64,000 bases of DNA from Candidatus Tumulicola sp. GTDB taxonomy: Bacteria; Vulcanimicrobiota; Vulcanimicrobiia; Vulcanimicrobiales; Vulcanimicrobiaceae. Each line of letters opens with the position of its first letter. The first letter of the stretch is position 1. The notes beneath the pieces were generated by a model. It worked only from the letters and a program-made list of their open reading frames with translations, had not been told where the DNA came from and made no database searches. The position numbers and the translations under genes were made by a program. This document shows, piece by piece, positions 17,912-62,966 of this stretch. The stretch covers positions 186,001 through 250,000 of the forward strand of contig DASXDT010000006.1 of the NCBI GenBank assembly GCA_036490475.1, written 5' to 3'.

Positions 17912-17949
17912 GGAAAGGGGTGTACGCAACGCCGAAGCATACACCCTCG

Positions 17950-18945
17950 ATGCCGATCGTCGAAACCCGGGACCTGCGCAAGGTCTTTCGCTCGGTCAAG
18001 CGCGTTCCGGGGGCGTTCGGCGCGCTCAAAACGCTCTTCTCGCGCACCTATGAAGATCGCGTCGCGGTCGAAGGCGTTTCGATGTCGCTCGAAGCCGGCG
18101 AGTTGGTCGGCTACATCGGTCCCAACGGTGCCGGTAAGTCGACGACGATCAAGATGCTCACCGGAATCTTGGTGCCGACCTCGGGCTCGGTGCAAGTGGC
18201 CGGGATCGTGCCGTGGCAGCGGCGCAAAGATAATGCCCGCAACATCGGGGTCGTGTTCGGACAGCGTAGCCAACTGTATTGGGATCTGCCGCTGGTGGAG
18301 TCGTTCGAGTTGCTGCGTGCCATTTACAGCGTTCCGCACGACCGGTATCGACGCAATCTCAACGAGTTCATCGAGATTCTCGAGATGGAGCCGTTCTTGC
18401 GTACGCCGGTGCGGCAACTGTCGCTCGGGCAGCGGATGCGCGGCGATTTTGCCGCGGCACTGCTGCACGAACCGTCGATCGTCTATTTGGACGAACCGAC
18501 GATCGGCCTCGACGTGGTCGCCAGGGACGCCATTTCGCAGTTCATCGCGCGCATCAATGCCGAGCGCGGCACCACCGTCGTGCTAACGACCCACGACTTA
18601 GCCGAAGTCGAACGACTCTGCCGGCGGATAATTTTGATCGACAAAGGCAGGATCGTCTACGATGGTAACGTCGAGCGTATCAAGGCAGAATATGGACGCT
18701 ATCGCACGCTCGTCGTGCATTTCAGCGAACCGGTCGCCGAGCCGCAGCTCGATGGAGCGGAACTCGACGGCCGCGATAAGCAAATCGCACGATTCAAATT
18801 CGATCGCAACACCCAACGCGTCGATCGCCTCGTTCGGCAAGCCAGCGAGCGCTATGGCGTCGAGGACGTCAGCATCGAAGAGCCCGATTTAGAATCGATC
18901 ATCAAACACATCTACGTTCGAGGATATGAGGAAAACGCGTCGTGA
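17950..18945 (+). CDS. ABC-2 type exporter ATP-binding subunit
   Basis: This 331-residue ATPase has Walker A GPNGAGKST, signature LSLGQ, Walker B IVYLDEPT and the switch histidine in LTTHD. An N-terminal extension before VAVEGVSMSLEAGE and a 90-residue C-terminal domain after the ATPase core match the COG4586 group, which works with two different ABC-2 permeases. Both permease types are present in the window (19646-20458 and 25463-26257). The start ATG at 17950 is preferred over an upstream in-frame ATG at 17920. Its stop overlaps the start of the hexapeptide gene. Confidence 0.9.
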   Translation: MPIVETRDLRKVFRSVKRVPGAFGALKTLFSRTYEDRVAVEGVSMSLEAGELVGYIGPNGAGKSTTIKMLTGILVPTSGSVQVAGIVPWQRRKDNARNIGVVFGQRSQLYWDLPLVESFELLRAIYSVPHDRYRRNLNEFIEILEMEPFLRTPVRQLSLGQRMRGDFAAALLHEPSIVYLDEPTIGLDVVARDAISQFIARINAERGTTVVLTTHDLAEVERLCRRIILIDKGRIVYDGNVERIKAEYGRYRTLVVHFSEPVAEPQLDGAELDGRDKQIARFKFDRNTQRVDRLVRQASERYGVEDVSIEEPDLESIIKHIYVRGYEENAS

Positions 18946-19649
18946 TCGTTTCGAGTGGCGGCAAGAAACCCAACGTGCACGCGAGCGCCTACGTCGCGCC
19001 CACCGCGGTGATTAGCGGCGACGTGACGATCGCTTCGGGCTGTGCGATCATGCACGGTGCGGTCATCGTTTCCGAGGGTGCGCCGGTGCGGATCGGCTCG
19101 GACTGCGCGATCATGGAATACGCCGTATTACGCGCCAGCGGCGGCACCGCGATGCAGTTCGCGCTCGAGCTCGGCGACCGGTGCCTCGTCGGTCCCCACG
19201 CCTACATCGCGGGCGCGACGCTGGGTGACGGTTGCTTCGTCGCGGGAACCGCCAGAATACTCAACGCCGCGATACTCGAGGACGATTGCAGCGTCGCTTC
19301 CGGAACGACCGTGCACGCGGGCGCGCACATGACCCACGGAACATCGGCGGGCGCAGATGCGGAACGTTTTGAGGCCCAACTCTTCGAACGCGTCTTCAAC
19401 GAGAAGGTCGAAGGTGACGTTCGCGGGCGCATCGCCGAATCGTATGCAAAATTTTTGCGCAAAGCGCACGCCCGCGATGGCACCGTTAACGAAACGAAAG
19501 CGCCGAAGGCGCCGGTTCGCCGGTCGGGCGAAGAACCGCCGGCCACGCAGACTACCGAAGTCGACAAGGTGGTCGATGTCATGATGCTCGAGCTGGAAGA
19601 AATGGAACACCGCCGTCAGGAGGCGATTCGTCGCCAGCGAGGCCATTGA
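18942..19649 (+). CDS. left-handed beta-helix (hexapeptide repeat) protein, gamma-carbonic-anhydrase-like
   Basis: Residues about 10-125 form hexapeptide repeats (SAYVAP, TAVISGDVTI, CAIMHGAVI, DCAIMEYAVL, HAYIAGATLGDGCFVAG) like those of gamma-carbonic anhydrases and acyltransferases. The zinc-ligand pattern of active carbonic anhydrase is not evident. The C-terminal 100 residues are charged and probably helical (ending ELEEMEHRRQEAIRRQRGH). GTG 18942 overlaps the ATPase stop and its own TGA overlaps the permease TTG, so it is translated as part of the exporter operon. A scaffold or acyltransferase acting with the exporter is possible; no function is established. Confidence 0.75.
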   Translation: MIVSSGGKKPNVHASAYVAPTAVISGDVTIASGCAIMHGAVIVSEGAPVRIGSDCAIMEYAVLRASGGTAMQFALELGDRCLVGPHAYIAGATLGDGCFVAGTARILNAAILEDDCSVASGTTVHAGAHMTHGTSAGADAERFEAQLFERVFNEKVEGDVRGRIAESYAKFLRKAHARDGTVNETKAPKAPVRRSGEEPPATQTTEVDKVVDVMMLELEEMEHRRQEAIRRQRGH

Positions 19650-20458
19650 CCGAATTCTTTAGGTGGAACGCCTGGGCGCCGTACGTCGAGTTTGCCAAGA
19701 AAGCGTTCGCGCGCGAAGCCACCTATCGAATGGAGGTGCTCACCGAGATCGGGTCGCTGGTCTTGCGCGTGTATATTCTGCGTTCGCTCTGGACCGCGCT
19801 GTACGCGCAGAACGCCGCGCCGATCAATCTGCCGCTCCACGCCATGATCACGTACGCGACGATCGCCATGCTGATGTCGCTCATTCTCGAAGTCGACGGC
19901 ACCCGGCTGATTCGCGAAAAGGTACGCGAAGGCACGATCGCGACCGATTTGATGAAGCCGATCAGTCTGCCACTGTACTTCTTTAGCGACGGAGTCGGCC
20001 AAACAGTCCTCCACGCGATCTTGGTCGTTCCGTCGATGCTGTGTGCGTTGCTGCTGGTGCACATCGACGTTCCACCGCCCGCCACTCTGGCCGCCTTCGC
20101 AGTTGCGTTTGCGATCGGCTATTGCGTCAATTTTTTCTTGAACTTCTTGATGAATTCGGTGGCGTTCTTTACGCTCGAATCCTTTGCGGTACAGTTGATC
20201 GTGCGTTGGGCATCCGATCTGTTGTCGGGACAGATTATTCCGCTGACGTTTTTCCCGGGCGTGCTCGGCCGAATCGTCTTTGGCTTACCGTTCGCGGCGA
20301 TCTACTCGACGCCGCTGCTGATCTACGTCGGCATCATTCCTCAATCGGGTTGGCTCGCCGCGTTTGCCACGCAGATCCTATGGCTAGCGCTTTTCGGAGC
20401 ACTCTCCATGACCGTCTGGCGCGCCGCCTCGCAGAAGATCGTCGTCCAGGGCGGCTAG
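19646..20458 (+). CDS. ABC-2 type exporter permease subunit 1
   Basis: This 270-residue integral membrane protein has about six hydrophobic helices and matches the ABC-2/DUF990-type permeases that pair with the preceding ATPase group. The conserved stretch LIREKVREGTIATDLMKPISLPLY, the coupling segment of this family, lies between helices 2 and 3. Translation starts at TTG 19646, overlapping the TGA of the hexapeptide gene by three bases. The exported substrate is unknown; relatives have been proposed to move drugs, lipids or polysaccharide precursors. It converges with the small gene at 20460, leaving one base between the two stop codons. Confidence 0.88.
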   Translation: MTEFFRWNAWAPYVEFAKKAFAREATYRMEVLTEIGSLVLRVYILRSLWTALYAQNAAPINLPLHAMITYATIAMLMSLILEVDGTRLIREKVREGTIATDLMKPISLPLYFFSDGVGQTVLHAILVVPSMLCALLLVHIDVPPPATLAAFAVAFAIGYCVNFFLNFLMNSVAFFTLESFAVQLIVRWASDLLSGQIIPLTFFPGVLGRIVFGLPFAAIYSTPLLIYVGIIPQSGWLAAFATQILWLALFGALSMTVWRAASQKIVVQGG

Positions 20459-20459
20459 G

Positions 20460-20714
20460 CTAGTGGCCGCGAATCTCTTTGATCGTCGCTTCGACGACGC
20501 TTGGAGCGTCCTGATACAGACCCTTCAAAAAGTTGACCGTTCGGGCCGCGCCGTCTTCGAAGCTAAAGCTGCAGTTGTTCACAAGGTTCTTGTTAAAGGC
20601 CAACTGGCCGCCGCCGTAGACGAGCTCGCAACCCTCGAACATGCAATTCTCGAAGTGGCCATCGTCCAAAACGACGCGCATGTCTTTGAAAACTTCTTTG
20701 TCATGAAGGGTCAC
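20460..20714 (-). CDS. small pentapeptide-like protein
   Basis: This 84-residue protein starts at GTG 20712-20714 and contains alternating-residue segments (HFENCMFEGCELVYGGG, LVNNCSFSFEDGAARTV) that look like short pentapeptide-repeat or beta-helix turns, followed by a C-terminal helix. An alternative internal ATG would shorten it by 11 residues. It follows the substrate-binding protein gene by 10 bases on the same strand and is the last gene of that operon. I recall similar small proteins in many bacteria without assigned function. Confidence 0.6.
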   Translation of the reverse strand: MTLHDKEVFKDMRVVLDDGHFENCMFEGCELVYGGGQLAFNKNLVNNCSFSFEDGAARTVNFLKGLYQDAPSVVEATIKEIRGH

Positions 20715-20724
20715 AATAGCATTC

Positions 20725-21531
20725 CTATCGGTACGTGATGCCGGCTTTTTCGAGAATCGTGCGGCCCGCACCGGTAAGGATGAAATCGGCGAACGCTTTT
20801 GCTTGCGCCGGATGCGGAGCGGCAGCCATCACCGCAAGCGTGTACGTGATTTTATCCGACAGCGACGCTTTGCCGGGAAGTGGATAAAACTTCAGCTTGC
20901 GGGCGATGGCTTCGGTGCGATAAAAGAACCCGACGTCGGCCTGTCCTGTCTCGATTCGCGCGAGGAGATCTTCTTCCGGAAACGTTTGCGCCGGATTCTC
21001 ATCGTCGCCGAGAATCTTTTGCTCGACCGCATCGCCGGCCAACAGTTTCATCCCGACGATCGTGTACTCGCCCTTGGGGTCGACCTTCGGGTCGGTACGC
21101 CCGATCACGAGCCCGTTGGTCTGCAACGCTTGAATTAGCGGGGTCTTTCCAGCAGCCACGGCGCCGAATAGTGCGGCGTCTTTCGAATTCGGGGACCATC
21201 CGATGCCTAAGCGCGTACTTGCGAACGTTTTTTGCGTCGCGACCTTCGAACCCAGTTTCGTCACTTGCTGTGGATCGACGCTGATGAAGTCGTCGGGACT
21301 CTTTGCGCCCGACGCGATTAAATTAGAGAGCATCTTGCTGCCGCCGCCTTGGCCTTCGAAATCGATGCCTTGCGACGCCAACGCAGACTTGATCGGACCT
21401 TCCATCGGTGTCACGAGCGAACCGGCGTACAGAACCGATACGACCGCATCGGATGCGGCGCGCCCGGAACTCGGGACGAACGATACGACTGCGATAACCG
21501 CGACGACTGCGGCGACGATCGAACGCTTCAT
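20725..21531 (-). CDS. tungstate/molybdate-type (WtpA/ModA-like) periplasmic binding protein
   Basis: This 268-residue protein has a Sec signal peptide (MKRSIVAAVVAVIAVVSFVP, then SSGRA) and the class of binding-protein fold used for oxyanions. The segments LYAGSLVTPMEGP, IGRTDPKVDPKGEYTI and ADFILTGAGRTILEKAG match WtpA/ModA-like proteins. It should bind molybdate, tungstate or a similar anion in the periplasm. No permease or ATPase gene of that system adjoins it, which is unusual. Its ATG overlaps the TGA of the transglutaminase gene as ATGA, so the two are coupled. A phosphate- or sulfate-like anion specificity is also possible. Confidence 0.8.
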   Translation of the reverse strand: MKRSIVAAVVAVIAVVSFVPSSGRAASDAVVSVLYAGSLVTPMEGPIKSALASQGIDFEGQGGGSKMLSNLIASGAKSPDDFISVDPQQVTKLGSKVATQKTFASTRLGIGWSPNSKDAALFGAVAAGKTPLIQALQTNGLVIGRTDPKVDPKGEYTIVGMKLLAGDAVEQKILGDDENPAQTFPEEDLLARIETGQADVGFFYRTEAIARKLKFYPLPGKASLSDKITYTLAVMAAAPHPAQAKAFADFILTGAGRTILEKAGITYR

Positions 21532-23435
21532 GAACGAGGCTCCCCTACAACGCGATGTGCAACGATCATCGAAGCTACGACGCGGTCGACAAGCGCTTGC
21601 ATGTGCGCCCCGGTCGCCTTTACCAGCCAGATGGTGCCGCGGTATTCTAGCAGAACCGCGCGCACGTTTCGTGCTTCGGCAATCAACACATCGTGGCCCG
21701 CAATCCGGCGTGACGCCGGAGCCGCCGAGATACCGGCCGATTTGAACAGCTGGTTGCGGTCGTTCGTTGAAGCCGGGAGCGAGACCGATTCATCGTGGAT
21801 CTCGATTTCGCGGCCGTCCGGCGCCCGCATTGCCACGACCATCGTTTGCGGCCAATGCGCGCCAAGTCCGGCGAACGCGAAACCTTCGGGTTTGCGAACC
21901 GACAAACCTAACCATCGATTATCGTACGCGTTACCGGCGATAGAATATGGCTTGGCATTGGCGGGAACCGCCGTTGTCGTACCGTCGACCGTATAATCGA
22001 GAATTCGAATATCGACGTTGCCGAGAATCTGCCCGAGACCGCCTAACCCGTCGAGGGTTCCGGAATCCAGCGAACTGGTATACACGCTGAAGCGCGCGGC
22101 ATCCGCCGGTCCGGGAGCGTAGAGTGCAGCATCGATCGGCGTCCAGCGATCGCCGATGCGCACTTCATCCCACGCATGGCCTCCCCAAATTCCGCCGGCA
22201 TACACGAGCCCGATCCGGACTCGCGACGGAATACCCGCAGCGCGCGCGAGCGAGCCGAGCAGAATGGAATAACCGAAGCACGTGCCGCGCCGATCGTTGA
22301 CGACCTCCGAAGCCGGCACGATCGATATACCAAGATCGAAGCGCATATTCGCCGCGGTCCAGCGCTGTAGCGCGAGGGTCGCCTTCCAAGGATTGCGTTC
22401 GTTTTTTACGACCGTACCGGCAATGCGGCGAACCTCGGTATCGTCGGACTGTAACAGTGCGTTGGGCGTCAGGAACGGCTGCAGAGCGGCCGCGGCTGGT
22501 TCCGGCGCTGCCGTCACTGCGCCGGGCGCGATTCGGCGTACCCGCAACACAACGTACCTCGGCGTCTTTTCGAGGACCGTTTGATTGCCGGCCGAGAAGT
22601 CGGGCCAACCCAAACTCGGATTGCGTGCGATGATCTTGAGCGTAATTGCTTGCATCATTCGTTGTTGCGGAAGGCGGATGTTCGAGGTTACGATCGAGCG
22701 CGTAAAGGTTTCAGACGGGATGTCCGCTGCCGAAATTGCCGGCGCAATGGCTGCCGCGGGCAAACGCAACGCTTCGATTTCACCGAGCGGACTTGCCATG
22801 GTTTGACGCACCATCCATCCCGACGCATCCAGCCACATCATCGATGGCGCCGGCATAGCGCTCATCCGTTGCTCGACTTTGACGGCGGACGTGCCTTCTA
22901 CGGCATCGTTTGCCGAGACGACCGTGTCGGACACCGTTAGGACGTTACCGAATTGTGGGCTGAACGTTTGGTACGCAAACATGTCGCCTGCGAGACGTAA
23001 GCGCTGCACGGCTTGCCGCTTGGCGGCGTCCGGCCCGGCCAGCGACCCTTGAAACGAGAGCCGGCGGTCGTACGAATGGCCACCTGCAATCGTCGTGACG
23101 CGAATGGACTGTCCGGCGACGACGGCGTGGACGACCGTGGGTTGTCGCGAACTCGACGACGTACTGTCGACCGCTAGCAGATCGCCCGATGGGGATTCGC
23201 AATACACATCCGTGCTCTTGAGCTCCAGCTTGGTACCGAGCCGGTTAAACACCATGTCGGAATCGATCGTCGTTATGACGTTTCCGCTCGCGTCCACGCG
23301 GCGCTTCTCACCGTAGGTTCCAATCGTCTGCCCGCCCATGCGGTAGACGGCACCGATCGCGGTTTCCACCGGCGAGGGTCGGGCGGTGCTCGCAGCGGCG
23401 ACCATATTGAGCGCGAGCAAAGCAGCGTGAATCAT
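21528..23435 (-). CDS. exported transglutaminase-like cysteine protease-fold protein
   Basis: This 635-residue protein starts at the ATG at 23433-23435 (AGGAG eight bases upstream) and has a short signal peptide (MIHAALLALNMVAAAS). A large beta-rich N-terminal part is followed by a transglutaminase-core domain whose catalytic triad is visible: C386 in RRGTCFGYS, H420 in GGHAWDEV and D435 in WTPIDAA. A further 200-residue C-terminal domain follows. Such proteins can crosslink or cleave peptides in the cell envelope. It is the first gene of a three-gene operon with an anion-binding protein and is divergent from an ECF sigma factor gene. Confidence 0.82.
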   Translation of the reverse strand: MIHAALLALNMVAAASTARPSPVETAIGAVYRMGGQTIGTYGEKRRVDASGNVITTIDSDMVFNRLGTKLELKSTDVYCESPSGDLLAVDSTSSSSRQPTVVHAVVAGQSIRVTTIAGGHSYDRRLSFQGSLAGPDAAKRQAVQRLRLAGDMFAYQTFSPQFGNVLTVSDTVVSANDAVEGTSAVKVEQRMSAMPAPSMMWLDASGWMVRQTMASPLGEIEALRLPAAAIAPAISAADIPSETFTRSIVTSNIRLPQQRMMQAITLKIIARNPSLGWPDFSAGNQTVLEKTPRYVVLRVRRIAPGAVTAAPEPAAAALQPFLTPNALLQSDDTEVRRIAGTVVKNERNPWKATLALQRWTAANMRFDLGISIVPASEVVNDRRGTCFGYSILLGSLARAAGIPSRVRIGLVYAGGIWGGHAWDEVRIGDRWTPIDAALYAPGPADAARFSVYTSSLDSGTLDGLGGLGQILGNVDIRILDYTVDGTTTAVPANAKPYSIAGNAYDNRWLGLSVRKPEGFAFAGLGAHWPQTMVVAMRAPDGREIEIHDESVSLPASTNDRNQLFKSAGISAAPASRRIAGHDVLIAEARNVRAVLLEYRGTIWLVKATGAHMQALVDRVVASMIVAHRVVGEPRS

Positions 23436-23517
23436 CGAGAGGCTCCTAACGTGGCAGTTGCGGTGTACGCTCCCAATCGTCTCGACGACGCGAGAAACGT
23501 TACGCTCGACGCGGAGA

Positions 23518-23523
23518 TATAAT
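23518..23523 (+). promoter_or_regulatory. candidate -10 element upstream of the ECF sigma gene
   Basis: A perfect TATAAT lies 49 bases before the GTG start of the sigma-factor gene in the 136-base divergent region. I could not find a convincing -35 at 16-18 bases upstream, so it may use an extended or activator-dependent promoter. A second AT-rich patch (TAATACTAT, about 23541-23549) is an alternative. Confidence 0.35.
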
Positions 23524-23571
23524 TTCTTTTGCGTACTATGTAATACTATCGCCGTTCGTGAGACAGCCGGT

Positions 23572-24090
23572 GTGAGGTACACTGTAATCGCCGAGTCAAC
23601 CGAGCAACACTTCACCGACCTCGTCGAAGAATTTCGAGGAGGTTTGACGCGCCTCGCAGCCTCGTACGAACCGCTGCCGCAAGCCCGTGAAGACCTGCTA
23701 CAGGATATCTACATGGCGCTGTGGGTTGCGTTGCCGAAGTGGCGAGGTGAGGCGTCGTTGCGAACGCTCGTCTACCGGATCGCGCACAATCGCGCGTTGA
23801 CGCACGTCTGGAAAAGAAAGCGGCGCGGGACACCAGAGACGATCGACGATGTGACCTTGCCGGACGATACGCCGGGGCCCGAACAAACGGCAATCGCCGC
23901 GGCCGATCGAGACCGGCTCGTCGACGTAGTGCGAGCGTTGCCGTTGGCGCTTCGACAACCGATGCTGCTAGCGCTCGAAGACCTTTCGCATTCCGAGATG
24001 TCTGCGGTACTCGGGATCACCGAGAACAATGTTGCAGTCCGCTTAAGCCGCGCACGCGCGTTACTGCGCGAACGCATGATGAGGAGTTAA
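23572..24090 (+). CDS. ECF-type RNA polymerase sigma factor
   Basis: This 172-residue protein has a sigma-2 region (LLQDIYMALWVALPKWRGEA and the LVYRIAHNRALTHVWK recognition segment) and a sigma-4 region ending in a helix-turn-helix (LSHSEMSAVLGITENNVAVRLSRARALL), with no sigma-3. GTG 23572 is the only standard start that fits the domain boundary. The next gene begins three bases after its stop and encodes a membrane protein that is probably its anti-sigma partner. By analogy it answers an envelope signal. The divergent transglutaminase operon is an obvious candidate target. Confidence 0.9.
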   Translation: MRYTVIAESTEQHFTDLVEEFRGGLTRLAASYEPLPQAREDLLQDIYMALWVALPKWRGEASLRTLVYRIAHNRALTHVWKRKRRGTPETIDDVTLPDDTPGPEQTAIAAADRDRLVDVVRALPLALRQPMLLALEDLSHSEMSAVLGITENNVAVRLSRARALLRERMMRS

Positions 24091-24093
24091 GCC

Positions 24094-24666
24094 GTGACCG
24101 ATCGCGAGATGCAAGCGTGGCGCGACGCATGGTCTGACGTAGATGCGCCCGATCTTGGCGAAACGACGGCCAACATCGCAAAACTACTCCAACGGCATCG
24201 GCGGCTCGCCGCGCTGCGTCTGGGCGGAAACCTTGCTTTCGCCGCCGCGCTGCTGGCGGGCAGTTTTGCGTTCGCGGAGCGAGTCCAGCAGCCGGAAATG
24301 ATTTTTTGGGCCGTCGCGGTTTGGATCGCGACGCTCGCCACGCTGGCATTGGCGTTAGAAGCGTGGCGCAAAGAACAACCGCACGACGCGGAAACGGTCG
24401 CCGGTTTCACCGGCTTCTATCGAAGTACGGCCATCGCCGATCGCTGGAAAGCGCGTAGCGGGGCGACGCTGCTGGCGGTCTTGTTTACCGTTTCGGCGGC
24501 GTGGCTCACCGTCGACCTGGTACTGGGGCGAATCGGCGGCGGCCACTACGCCGTCGTTCTCACAATCGAGGTCGTGGTCTGCGCCATTTGGGCGTTCGCA
24601 TTCGAACGCATGTGGCGGCGTGCGACCGTCGTGTTAGAGCGCTCGAGCGACGAAGCGATACCCTAG
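24094..24666 (+). CDS. membrane protein, putative anti-sigma partner of the ECF sigma factor
   Basis: This 190-residue protein has a cytoplasmic N-terminal part of about 40 residues and four predicted membrane helices (about 43-60, 70-88, 125-143 and 152-170). It starts with GTG 24094, three bases after the sigma-factor stop. The N-terminus (MTDREMQAWRDAWSDVDAPD) could bind the sigma factor, but no zinc-binding HxxxCxxC anti-sigma motif is visible. Assignment rests on the gene pairing and topology, not on a recognised domain. Confidence 0.65.
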   Translation: MTDREMQAWRDAWSDVDAPDLGETTANIAKLLQRHRRLAALRLGGNLAFAAALLAGSFAFAERVQQPEMIFWAVAVWIATLATLALALEAWRKEQPHDAETVAGFTGFYRSTAIADRWKARSGATLLAVLFTVSAAWLTVDLVLGRIGGGHYAVVLTIEVVVCAIWAFAFERMWRRATVVLERSSDEAIP

Positions 24667-25390: not shown

Positions 25391-25462
25391 ATAGGCATAC
25401 AACCGGCGGGGGGCGCGCTGTGGTTGCGAGGAGCGTCGCGCCCTCCCGGCCAAGCCCGCCGC

Positions 25463-26257
25463 GTGGTCGCCGCTTACATCCAGTACTGGCGCATCAGCCT
25501 GCTGACGATTCTCGAGTACCGGGCAAACTTCGTGATGTGGTTCTTCTTCACGATCGCCTACCACGGCGTAGCGCTCGGCGCGCTCTACGTGACGATGCGG
25601 CAGTTTCCGTCCATGAACGGCTGGGACTTCAGGCAGATGTTCTTTCTCTACGCGCTCTGGATGGCCGGCCACGAGCTGCACAATCTGCTTTTTTTTACGA
25701 TCGTCAGCGTGCCCGAATATATCCGTGAGGGACGCTTCGACCGGTTTTTAATCCGGCCGCTCGACACGCTCTTTCAAGTGATTACCGTCCCGCAGCAAAT
25801 CTCACCCGACGGCATGATTCTCGGCATCGTCACGCTATGTGTCGCCACCGCGGTAGCGGGCGTGCGCGTCGACTGGCTGTTCGTGCTGTTCGTTCCGCTT
25901 ATCGTGGCCGGCGGAGCGATGATCGACCTTGGCATCTCGCTGGCGGTCGCGACGATGGCCTTCTGGTTCATACGAATCGACACGTTGCGTTGGGTCGCAA
26001 TGTCGCTCGAACAGGACTTCACGCGCTATCCAATCAGCATCTATACGCGCGGCGTGCGCATCGTGCTGACCTACCTACTCCCGTTCGCGTTTATGAACTA
26101 CTACCCGGCAACGTATTTCTTACAGAAAAGCGATCCGGGATTGCACCTCAACGCTGCGGTCGGATTGCTGACACCAGCCGTCGGCGTGGTTTGGGTGGCC
26201 GCAGCCTACGCGTTTTGGCGCGTTGGACTGCGGCATTATCAGGGCACCGGATCCTAA
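25463..26257 (+). CDS. ABC-2 type exporter permease subunit 2
   Basis: This roughly 264-residue membrane protein has about six helices and belongs to the COG3694-type permeases that pair with the ATPase at 17950 and the permease at 19646. The family segment SVPEYIREGRFDRFLIRPLDTLFQV is clear and corresponds to the KPISLPLY segment of subunit 1. The start is uncertain: GTG 25463 gives a compact N-terminus (VVAAYIQYWRISLL), while TTG 25424, behind a G-rich stretch, adds 13 residues. Its separation from the other two subunits by about 5 kb is unusual and suggests an insertion or rearrangement. Confidence 0.83.
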   Translation: MVAAYIQYWRISLLTILEYRANFVMWFFFTIAYHGVALGALYVTMRQFPSMNGWDFRQMFFLYALWMAGHELHNLLFFTIVSVPEYIREGRFDRFLIRPLDTLFQVITVPQQISPDGMILGIVTLCVATAVAGVRVDWLFVLFVPLIVAGGAMIDLGISLAVATMAFWFIRIDTLRWVAMSLEQDFTRYPISIYTRGVRIVLTYLLPFAFMNYYPATYFLQKSDPGLHLNAAVGLLTPAVGVVWVAAAYAFWRVGLRHYQGTGS

Positions 26258-60515: not shown

Positions 60516-62966
60516 GTGCGCCGCATGCACGGAATTCTGCTCGCACTTTGCTGCCTCGTATCGGGCAACGTACACTCGCCGTCGGGGGCTCCGATCGTCC
60601 AAGCGCAGATCGTCCTGTCGGGCCCGGTCACCGTTCGAGCGGCGACCGATGCGAGAGGCGCGTTCTCCGTGCAAGTATCTCCCGGACGCTACACCGTGGG
60701 GGCGAACGCAGGCGGCTTCATCGCGATTCAAGCCGACATCGGCGAGATCGACCGCGATTCGACCGTCGACGTCGCGTTGGAGCCGGCCGACTCCCCGAAA
60801 CTTCGGACGATCGGCGAGGTGCGCGTAAACGGCGGATACGGATTGGTGCGCAGCGCCATCCCGGAGATGAGCGTTTCGCGCTCGGAGATGGACGCGCTCG
60901 GTTACAGCACCGTGTTGCAAGGTCTGCAGCAGATTCCGTCCGTCGTCATCCAGCATCCCGATTCGGGTGCTCCGACCGCTCCAGCCGTCGTGTCGCTGCG
61001 TGGACCGGACCCATCCGAATCGCTGGTAACGCTCGACGGACAAGTACTCAACGACGGTAACACCGGCGATCTCGACCTCTCGCAGTTCGCCGTGCCGGCT
61101 TTTAACAGCGTCAACGTAACCGAGGGGCTCGGGCCGGCCGATAGTGAGGGCAGCAACACGTTTGGCGGCGCCGTCAACCTCGTATCGCTCCAGCCGACCC
61201 AGCAAGATCACGTTGCGGTATCGGGCTCGGCCGGCTCGTACGGCACGACGCAGACGTGGATGAACGCCACCGGCAGCATCGGGAAACTCGGTTACGCAGT
61301 GGCAGGCAACGTGTATCAGTCGGCCGGCCAAGTCGACCAATATACCCCGGTCTATCCATCCAACAATGCGCCGTCGAAACATTGCAACTTGGTGGGTAGC
61401 GGGATCGTCACGCCGGCCGCACAACCGCAGAACTGTGCGCTGCTCACGCATCTCGGTTCGTCGATCAACGCCAAGCTCGGCCTGGTGAACCTGGATTACA
61501 ACTTTTCGCAACGCGCCGATGCCGGCGTGCGCATCTTCACGCTCGGTGACTTTCGCGACGAAAGCAGCGCGGTGAACGGCATCGCCGGTAATTCATTCGA
61601 ACCATGCGACCCGACCGACTCGAGCGCGCCGGTATGTCCTAGCGGCTTTACGAGCACGCCCAACCCCCGGTACGGCGACAACGTCGGTACGGGCAACGCA
61701 ATCTTTACGCAAAACATCCGCGCCTACGACGCATACTCGCGTTCGGTGCTCGGGTCGGGAACGCTGCTAGCCGAATTCTACGCCAATGATAACGACGTCG
61801 ACCTTTCCGGCGGATCGGGCGCGACGTCGCCGTACGATGTGTCGCATCAAGATAAGCGCTACAACGAAGCCCTATCGTGGGGACGCACGTTCGAAACCGG
61901 CGAGTTCACCTTCGGCGGATACGCGCGCCAAGAATCGCTGACCGCCAACGGCATCGACGGAACGCTATCGCAAAGCGTTAACGCCTACTTCGCGCGCGGC
62001 GCCCAGCAATTCGGCCGGCTGCGCCTTTCGGGCGGCCTCTACGAAGCCGACTACACGACGTTCGGCAGCACGCTGGATTGGCGGCTCGGACTCAGCTACG
62101 ACCTCAACGCGTCGAACGTGATCCATGCCTCCGCAGGCACGGGATTTCGCGCTCCGCTGTTGATCGAACGCTACTATTTTCCTCCGGTGCTGGTGAACGG
62201 CAAGCCGCAACCCAATCCGGGGCTACCGCCCCCCGATCAGAATTGCGTGGTCGCAGGACAAGGAAATCCGGACGAGCGTCCGGAGCACGCGACTGAATAC
62301 GAGCTCGGATATTCGCATCTCTTTTCCACCCAATCCGATCTCGACGTGTCGTTGTACCGTTCCAATTTGCGCGACACGATCGAGAACTATTATCCCTTCG
62401 GAGCGTGCAATTCGAAGCTGGAATATGCATACGAGATTCCGATCAACATCGGGAACGCGGTCTACGAGGGCGCCGAAGTGCGTTATCGCCAAGGATTTCC
62501 AAGGCAGCACCTGACGATGGTGCTATCGTACGGCCTCAACGTCGCGTATCCGTACTCACTCGGACCGAATGTGTCGAATCCGACCTCGGGCGGCAGCTTG
62601 GTCGACGACGAGCAGTTCCTCGGCGTTCCGCAGCAACAAGGGTCGGCAACACTGACATGGGCGCAAAACGGCTGGCACGCATCGACGGCAGCAACCTTCA
62701 GCGGGAACAACAATCCGTTGAGCCAGCAGCCGTACACGATCGTCGACGGCGCGATCGGTCACGATTTCGGACGCCTCGACGTCACCCTAGCCGCATCGAA
62801 CATGTTCAACGCAGTTTCCGGTCCGTTCACGCAGTATCTGGCCGGCGTTCCGTATCGAGGACTGTACGCGGGTCCAAACGGCTCGCAATACCAAGCCAAC
62901 CTGCCCACCGACCAACTCAACGTGCAGCCGGCTTCAATTCGCTTCATCGTAACATTTCACGAGTGA
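60516..62966 (+). CDS. TonB-dependent outer-membrane receptor with carboxypeptidase-regulatory-like N-terminus
   Basis: The 816-residue protein begins with a signal peptide, a CarboxypepD_reg-like beta domain (GNVHSPSGAPIVQAQIVLSG), then a plug (VLQGLQQIPSVVIQ, SLRGPDPSESLVTLDGQ, GSNTFGGAVNLVS) and a beta-barrel. It ends PASIRFIVTFHE, with the terminal aromatic signature of outer-membrane proteins. It imports siderophores, vitamins or large substrates using TonB energy, and proves an outer membrane. The start is GTG 60516 or the ATG three codons later. No TonB, ExbB or ABC importer gene is adjacent. Confidence 0.9.
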   Translation: MRRMHGILLALCCLVSGNVHSPSGAPIVQAQIVLSGPVTVRAATDARGAFSVQVSPGRYTVGANAGGFIAIQADIGEIDRDSTVDVALEPADSPKLRTIGEVRVNGGYGLVRSAIPEMSVSRSEMDALGYSTVLQGLQQIPSVVIQHPDSGAPTAPAVVSLRGPDPSESLVTLDGQVLNDGNTGDLDLSQFAVPAFNSVNVTEGLGPADSEGSNTFGGAVNLVSLQPTQQDHVAVSGSAGSYGTTQTWMNATGSIGKLGYAVAGNVYQSAGQVDQYTPVYPSNNAPSKHCNLVGSGIVTPAAQPQNCALLTHLGSSINAKLGLVNLDYNFSQRADAGVRIFTLGDFRDESSAVNGIAGNSFEPCDPTDSSAPVCPSGFTSTPNPRYGDNVGTGNAIFTQNIRAYDAYSRSVLGSGTLLAEFYANDNDVDLSGGSGATSPYDVSHQDKRYNEALSWGRTFETGEFTFGGYARQESLTANGIDGTLSQSVNAYFARGAQQFGRLRLSGGLYEADYTTFGSTLDWRLGLSYDLNASNVIHASAGTGFRAPLLIERYYFPPVLVNGKPQPNPGLPPPDQNCVVAGQGNPDERPEHATEYELGYSHLFSTQSDLDVSLYRSNLRDTIENYYPFGACNSKLEYAYEIPINIGNAVYEGAEVRYRQGFPRQHLTMVLSYGLNVAYPYSLGPNVSNPTSGGSLVDDEQFLGVPQQQGSATLTWAQNGWHASTAATFSGNNNPLSQQPYTIVDGAIGHDFGRLDVTLAASNMFNAVSGPFTQYLAGVPYRGLYAGPNGSQYQANLPTDQLNVQPASIRFIVTFHE

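Follow-up and report, generated by a model that had tools for sequence, protein, structure and literature searches.

A transglutaminase-linked ECF sigma module, probably horizontally acquired, with two genes added to its predicted operon

The window analyzed here, a 64-kb stretch of DNA (G000:C6:186001-250000), holds a locus that is two things joined: a module of three genes, encoding an ECF sigma factor, a four-helix membrane protein, and a transglutaminase-like protein (TG), and, behind the TG gene, a resident binding protein gene and a small gene (Table 1). We favor, with a probability of roughly 0.7, the reading that the three genes form a self-regulated ECF sigma module that was probably acquired horizontally and that serves envelope maintenance, with the other two genes added to it. 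As proposed, the membrane protein would probably use its short cytoplasmic N terminus to keep the sigma factor at the inner membrane until an envelope signal freed it; the freed sigma factor would then transcribe both the operon that encodes it and, starting at the second site of this intergenic gap, the TG operon. TG would act in the periplasm through a papain-like triad, and a lipid or lipoprotein may be bound in its EipB-like barrel, so that envelope maintenance would be the likely output. The TG operon would here be extended by the resident binding protein, so that one component of an ABC uptake system would be controlled along with it, and by the small protein. The sigma/membrane/TG set looks like a traveling, self-regulated cell envelope module.

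Table 1. Genes and predicted promoter sites of the locus (positions within the window)
Feature	Position	Strand	Remarks
ECF sigma factor	23572..24090	+	172 aa, GTG start; Sigma70_r2 and Sigma70_r4_2
Four-helix membrane protein, proposed anti-sigma	24094..24666	+	190 aa; from hydrophobic peaks and model
Predicted sigma-type site facing sigma gene	23539..23568	+	best score in window, 12.76; matrix built without the window
Predicted sigma-type site facing TG operon	23475..23504	-	second-best score in window, 12.41; same matrix
Transglutaminase-like protein (TG)	21528..23435	-	635 aa; Transglut_core; barrel, core, and PsbP-like domain
Anion-binding protein (SBP_bac_11)	20725..21531	-	ATGA-coupled behind TG; outside conserved module
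Small protein	20460..20714	-	84 aa, last in predicted operon; outside conserved module

An earlier, sequence-only reading had placed five reading frames in 20460-24666, all of which are present, as is the ATGA overlap that it described between TG and the binding protein. The TG and sigma genes are divergent, with a gap of 136 bp between them. The small gene begins 10 bases beyond the binding protein gene on the minus strand, and the GTG at 20714 is its likely start as judged from sequence. For TG, a longer frame starting at 23615 was disfavored, as the predicted promoter falls inside it, and the ATG at 23435, with a purine-rich AGGAG just upstream, was preferred. In GC content, the module genes are unremarkable. 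An ABC-2 exporter ATPase gene and one permease gene occupy 17920-20458 on one side of the five-gene block, and on the other side, beyond a pirin gene, a second ABC-2-like permease frame was recognized from its translation at about 25400-26257; it is as if the block sat inside an exporter locus.

The identities proposed earlier for the sigma factor and the transglutaminase held. The sigma factor matched Pfam Sigma70_r2 (E 7.5e-12) and Sigma70_r4_2 (E 6.8e-11) over the cut-offs, scored 81.3 bits with TIGR02937 (cut-off, 42.9), and contains regions 2 and 4 only, as ECF sigma factors require. TG matched Transglut_core with E 5.5e-18 and 65.7 bits (cut-off, 23).

Next, the conservation of the locus was examined in 60 genomes (the window genome and 59 related ones) and in 66 TG loci, the latter obtained by scanning a named genome collection with TG alignment A1. 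Conserved linkage of all five genes found no support in either set, and the five-gene conserved unit was rejected: among the 60 genomes, the membrane protein matched its own genome only and the small gene was found in 2, the window genome included. Neither TG nor the membrane protein had a close homologue in the 59 related genomes, although TG had weak or distant matches in 8 of them (the best, 30%, in G058). Scanning genome contigs with TG as the only query gave no match, and a plasmid search gave no match for TG or for the membrane protein. What stood of the proposed circuit is that the sigma factor, the membrane protein, and TG belong together; the binding protein, for which no match was seen in the 66 loci, is not part of the conserved module.

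The three nearest TG homologues (loci L110 to L112; 46 to 56% identical) are all from Acidobacteriota, and in each an ECF sigma gene, 54 to 67% identical in product to that of the window, is divergent from TG. A four-helix gene follows the sigma gene in L111 and L112, while the L110 contig ends inside its sigma gene. The order TG-sigma-membrane occurs in L124 and L144 (Bacteroidota) and in L190 (from the sample of the L112 phylum), and the order sigma-membrane-TG occurs in L117 (Bacteroidota). The three genes thus occur jointly in three phyla, arranged in three different orders, and the membrane protein accompanies the sigma-TG pair wherever the contig lets it be seen. Since the order is shuffled and the membership kept, function rather than a shared inherited block probably accounts for the linkage. 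The Bacteroidota TG at L144:6091-7604 is split into two reading frames in the assembly.

Sigma-like ORFs were concentrated near TG, with 12 within 1.2 kb (146 kb searched) versus 1 beyond (439 kb searched), or 6 versus 1 when the six ORFs used to build the profile were set aside. No sigma gene lay within 1.2 kb of TG in 56 of the 66 loci, only 52 of which have 1.2 kb available on both sides, and in the L112 phylum sample 18 of 20 TG matches had no sigma gene in flanks of about 1.5 kb (the exceptions being G062 and G072); therefore, TG also lives without a sigma factor. The distribution of TG is patchy: counting the query genome each time, it was found in 20 of 396 genomes of the L112 phylum (E 1e-60), 2 of 399 of the L112 class (E 1e-100), and 1 of 395 of the L124 class (E 1e-100). 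In four further loci (L128, L129, L140, and L174, two of them in Planctomycetota), a sigma gene that looks unrelated lies within 1.2 kb of the TG homologue, and ECF control of such proteins may have arisen more than once.

In a sigma factor tree, the window sigma grouped with those of L111, L112, and L190 (100/99) and, inside that group, with L111 and L112 (98/64), so that it is nested among Acidobacteriota module sigmas. The Bacteroidota module sigmas formed their own group, adjoining window-family sigmas that have no TG beside them. The seven module sigmas are not one clade, and the tree needs two changes. The module was probably acquired horizontally; acquisition from Acidobacteriota would be the simplest reading of its direction. 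Sigma genes of the same family, followed by a membrane protein gene and without TG, are also present in L072, L078, and L088:6417-7615 (G000:C6 near 445 kb). The membrane proteins of these three loci look alike by eye and gave no profile match at E up to 1; the pairs are possibly a wider sigma/membrane protein class.

The gap between the divergent genes was compared with those of the other loci. By eye, TGTAA-spacer-GAGACTACC precedes both TG and the sigma gene in the Acidobacteriota loci, and the bipartite motif can be written TGTAA-spacer-GAGAC. The pattern scanned, [TC]GTAA-N15-18-[GC]AGAC, took its letters from the Acidobacteriota sites, but the window sites had already been seen beforehand. 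It matched twice in the 64-kb window, both times in the sigma/TG gap and facing opposite genes. Elsewhere, L110 and L112 each gave two matches, as did the L111 gap, with a third L111 match outside the gap; L190 has a single match, located before TG. The other loci, which amount to 1.6 Mb and in part overlap one another, gave 15. Shuffled gaps contained any match in 185 of 20,000 cases and a match on both strands in 0 of 20,000, and across 200 shuffled windows the matches averaged 1.09 per window and never exceeded 5. A matrix built from seven Acidobacteriota sites, with the window excluded, gave the two gap sites the top two scores of the window, the next score being 11.24. The window sites (12.4 to 12.8) score much lower than the Acidobacteriota sites (23 to 28), and 465 kb of the same genome contains 11 sites at 12.4 or above, reaching 16.5 and lying mostly inside genes as called; it is therefore the placing of the sites, not their score, that carries the promoter argument.

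Upstream of TG in the 66 loci, the pattern was seen only with a divergent module sigma (L110, L111, and L112); for L110 the stretch examined there shows the sigma-facing site only, and the TG-facing site came from the pattern scan. The Bacteroidota loci L117 and L144 have a TGTAAG half with different downstream boxes, and neither motif half was found in L124. The link between the sigma factor and the TG operon that the earlier reading had suggested is thus backed by predicted sigma-type sites facing both. The site facing the sigma gene, predicted from sequence, would also fit autoregulation, and about 55% of ECFs are given as having an autoregulated promoter (PMC8103513). The GTG of the sigma gene is only 12 bases downstream of the start of GAGAC; hence, its message may be leaderless.

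The membrane protein has four hydrophobic peaks and, as had been noted earlier, no zinc anti-sigma motif; HxxxCxxC is absent from all seven four-helix proteins checked, the one in the window included. The motif is reported for about half of the members of the class I anti-sigma (ASDI) group (PMC7406223). Members of this group have an N-terminal cytoplasmic four-helix domain; here, roughly 40 residues precede the first membrane helix. The membrane protein matched no Pfam family over cut-off, and even a limit of E 1 brought up no anti-sigma domain. Its single-chain model (pLDDT 78) is helical, with five helices, including modeled helices at residues 3 to 13 and 25 to 64, and only short segments between the paired helices. 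A fold search with the model gave no match at E 0.001 or below, the top rows being designed helical bundles. The four-helix proteins of the other loci are only 12 to 25% identical to that of the window, and together these sigma partners point to a family without any Pfam model among those scanned.

We infer that the membrane protein is an anti-sigma factor, because anti-sigma genes are usually neighbors of their sigma genes (PMC8103513) and because CarR provides a multihelix precedent. The gene might instead encode another product of the sigma operon, with the sigma factor controlled at transcription only; the missing zinc motif, family assignment, and informative structural match, together with the weak conservation, would fit this. 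It is improbable, though, given that the gene directly follows the sigma gene both here and in the trios of six other loci (L111, L112, L117, L124, L144, and L190), with the sigma and membrane frames overlapping in those six, and that anti-sigma factors with many helices exist, CarR being described with six (PMC8156234).

TG was modeled with a pLDDT of 89 as three domains. Residues 23 to 228 form a barrel that resembles EipB (6NTR; Z 17.9, rmsd 3.0, 200 aligned), residues 261 to 484 form a transglutaminase core (3ISR; Z 19.2, rmsd 3.3, 209 aligned), and residues 500 to 626 resemble Tsi3 and PsbP (Z about 10 to 11). The papain-like triad, Cys386, His420, and Asp435, is intact in 26 of 26 aligned TG rows. 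The N terminus is a short hydrophobic stretch, from which export is likely, with no peak over the hydrophobicity threshold of 1.3. The core fold and Cys-His-Asp triad are shared with transglutaminase-like proteases, namely, 3ISR, TgpA, and LapG (Z 19.2, 10.1, and 9.8); the set of barrel, core, and PsbP-like domain sets the window protein apart. The barrel is only 8% identical to EipB of Brucella, shows no match to DUF1849 at E values up to 1, and unlike EipB is fused to the two other domains. EipB is described as a periplasmic envelope integrity factor whose loss leaves Brucella sensitive to envelope-disrupting compounds (PMC10787603). On the modeled folds, an envelope function for TG is plausible and the domain set suggests envelope upkeep; with EipB as analogue, envelope care would be the output.

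These features also bear on where TG stands in the circuit. TG could lie in the signaling path itself, its barrel binding an envelope signal and TG acting on or docking to the four-helix protein, so that it would be both sensor and product of the sigma factor. TG and the sigma gene do stay together through changes of gene order, the triad is intact, and the barrel, besides its likeness to EipB, weakly matches RseB (Foldseek E 0.032), which is described as a periplasmic regulator of sigma-E release (PMC4598750). The short inter-helix segments of the membrane protein make a separate sensor plausible, yet the same short loops leave little to cleave, and the many TG homologues without a nearby sigma gene speak for a job of its own. 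A sensor role for TG is considered unlikely. We regard as similarly doubtful the extended version in which the module is mobile, the barrel is a periplasmic sensor that frees the sigma factor from a new kind of membrane-embedded anti-sigma factor, and the resident genes were captured behind the module's own promoter in a new phylum.

The binding protein has a different history. It matched SBP_bac_11 (Pfam; E 4.8e-28), and its best PDB sequence relatives are molybdate-binding proteins, but its scores with the WtpA and ModA models are below the curated cut-offs (PRK04168, 48.2 versus 355; TIGR01256, 36.7 versus 62.5; TIGR03730, 33.9 versus 242.75); the suggested metal-oxyanion sensing thus found no support. 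It was matched in 44 of the 60 genomes, the window genome included. In a genome of the same genus (L049), its gene overlaps the end of a TonB-dependent receptor gene, whose 74% relative is at 60516-62966 of the window; a pirin gene is upstream in both genomes. In other relatives the neighbors differ, a SelR/MsrB-like gene among them.

The earlier description of this protein as an orphan without a permease is right locally. Across genomes, a BPD_transp_1 permease (P0007; G000:C5:768006-768764, another contig of the same genome) co-occurs with it. Of the 60 genomes, 25 carry P0007 with at least 53% identity, G016 and G023 in two pieces. Counted by hand, 24 of the 29 genomes in which the binding protein matched at or below E 2e-27 have a P0007-like permease on another contig, which gives no distance, as most of these genomes are drafts. 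In the other 5 of the 29, which are more distant relatives, the permease adjoins the binding protein, and a truly orphan protein was rejected. One genome, G032 (63% complete), has the permease without the binding protein. Among the 4 of 5 permease-like matches listed for the window genome, none is within the window. The binding protein and permease probably make up a split ABC importer in this family, the protein having the look of an ancestral part of a transporter whose permease is encoded elsewhere. It is an old resident gene, now ATGA-coupled behind TG.

The small protein matched no family over cut-off; its description as beta-helix-like was not borne out, with Pentapeptide_4 reaching only E 0.079 and 13.5 bits (cut-off, 38). 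Its second match among the 60 genomes is in G004, where the gene is 92 kb from the binding protein gene. The proposal of a single metal-oxyanion or envelope sensing circuit made up of the five genes could draw on their arrangement, since TG, the binding protein, and the small gene form one predicted operon with closely spaced frames and a sigma-type site is predicted before TG. The changing neighbors and unlinked permease of the binding protein, the missed WtpA and ModA cut-offs, and the rarity and separate position of the small gene make this very improbable.

Among known systems, we rate the module as being of the ECF sigma/membrane anti-sigma kind, with the exported TG as an addition. In CarQ-CarR of Myxococcus xanthus, as in the window, an ECF sigma gene is followed by that of an almost all-helix membrane protein, and the operon is described as autoregulated (PMC8156234). 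CarR (DUF1109) has six helices rather than four, however, the window protein shows no match to DUF1109 at E values up to 1, and an exported TG belongs to the window module. RpoE-RseA-RseB of E. coli is likewise an envelope-facing ECF sigma circuit, with RseB weakly resembling the TG barrel, but the module lacks a single-helix anti-sigma factor like RseA, and the barrel here is fused to a transglutaminase core. CnrY, described as embracing its sigma factor with two helices and as a second structural class of anti-sigma factor (PMC4598750), may be likened to the window protein, which is modeled with a short cytoplasmic segment before its first membrane helix; the window protein differs from that of CnrH-CnrY in its four membrane helices. 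In the literature covered, no sigma-TG module or such four-helix family was found; the main ECF reclassification may list the grouping. The predicted sigma factor, promoter, and target set can be tested in one strain, and the locus illustrates how a regulatory module common to other phyla may subject a resident transporter gene to new control. In another locus (L107:6331-7335), a helix-turn-helix domain is fused to PBP_like beside an ABC importer permease gene, and the product is probably a transcriptional regulator.
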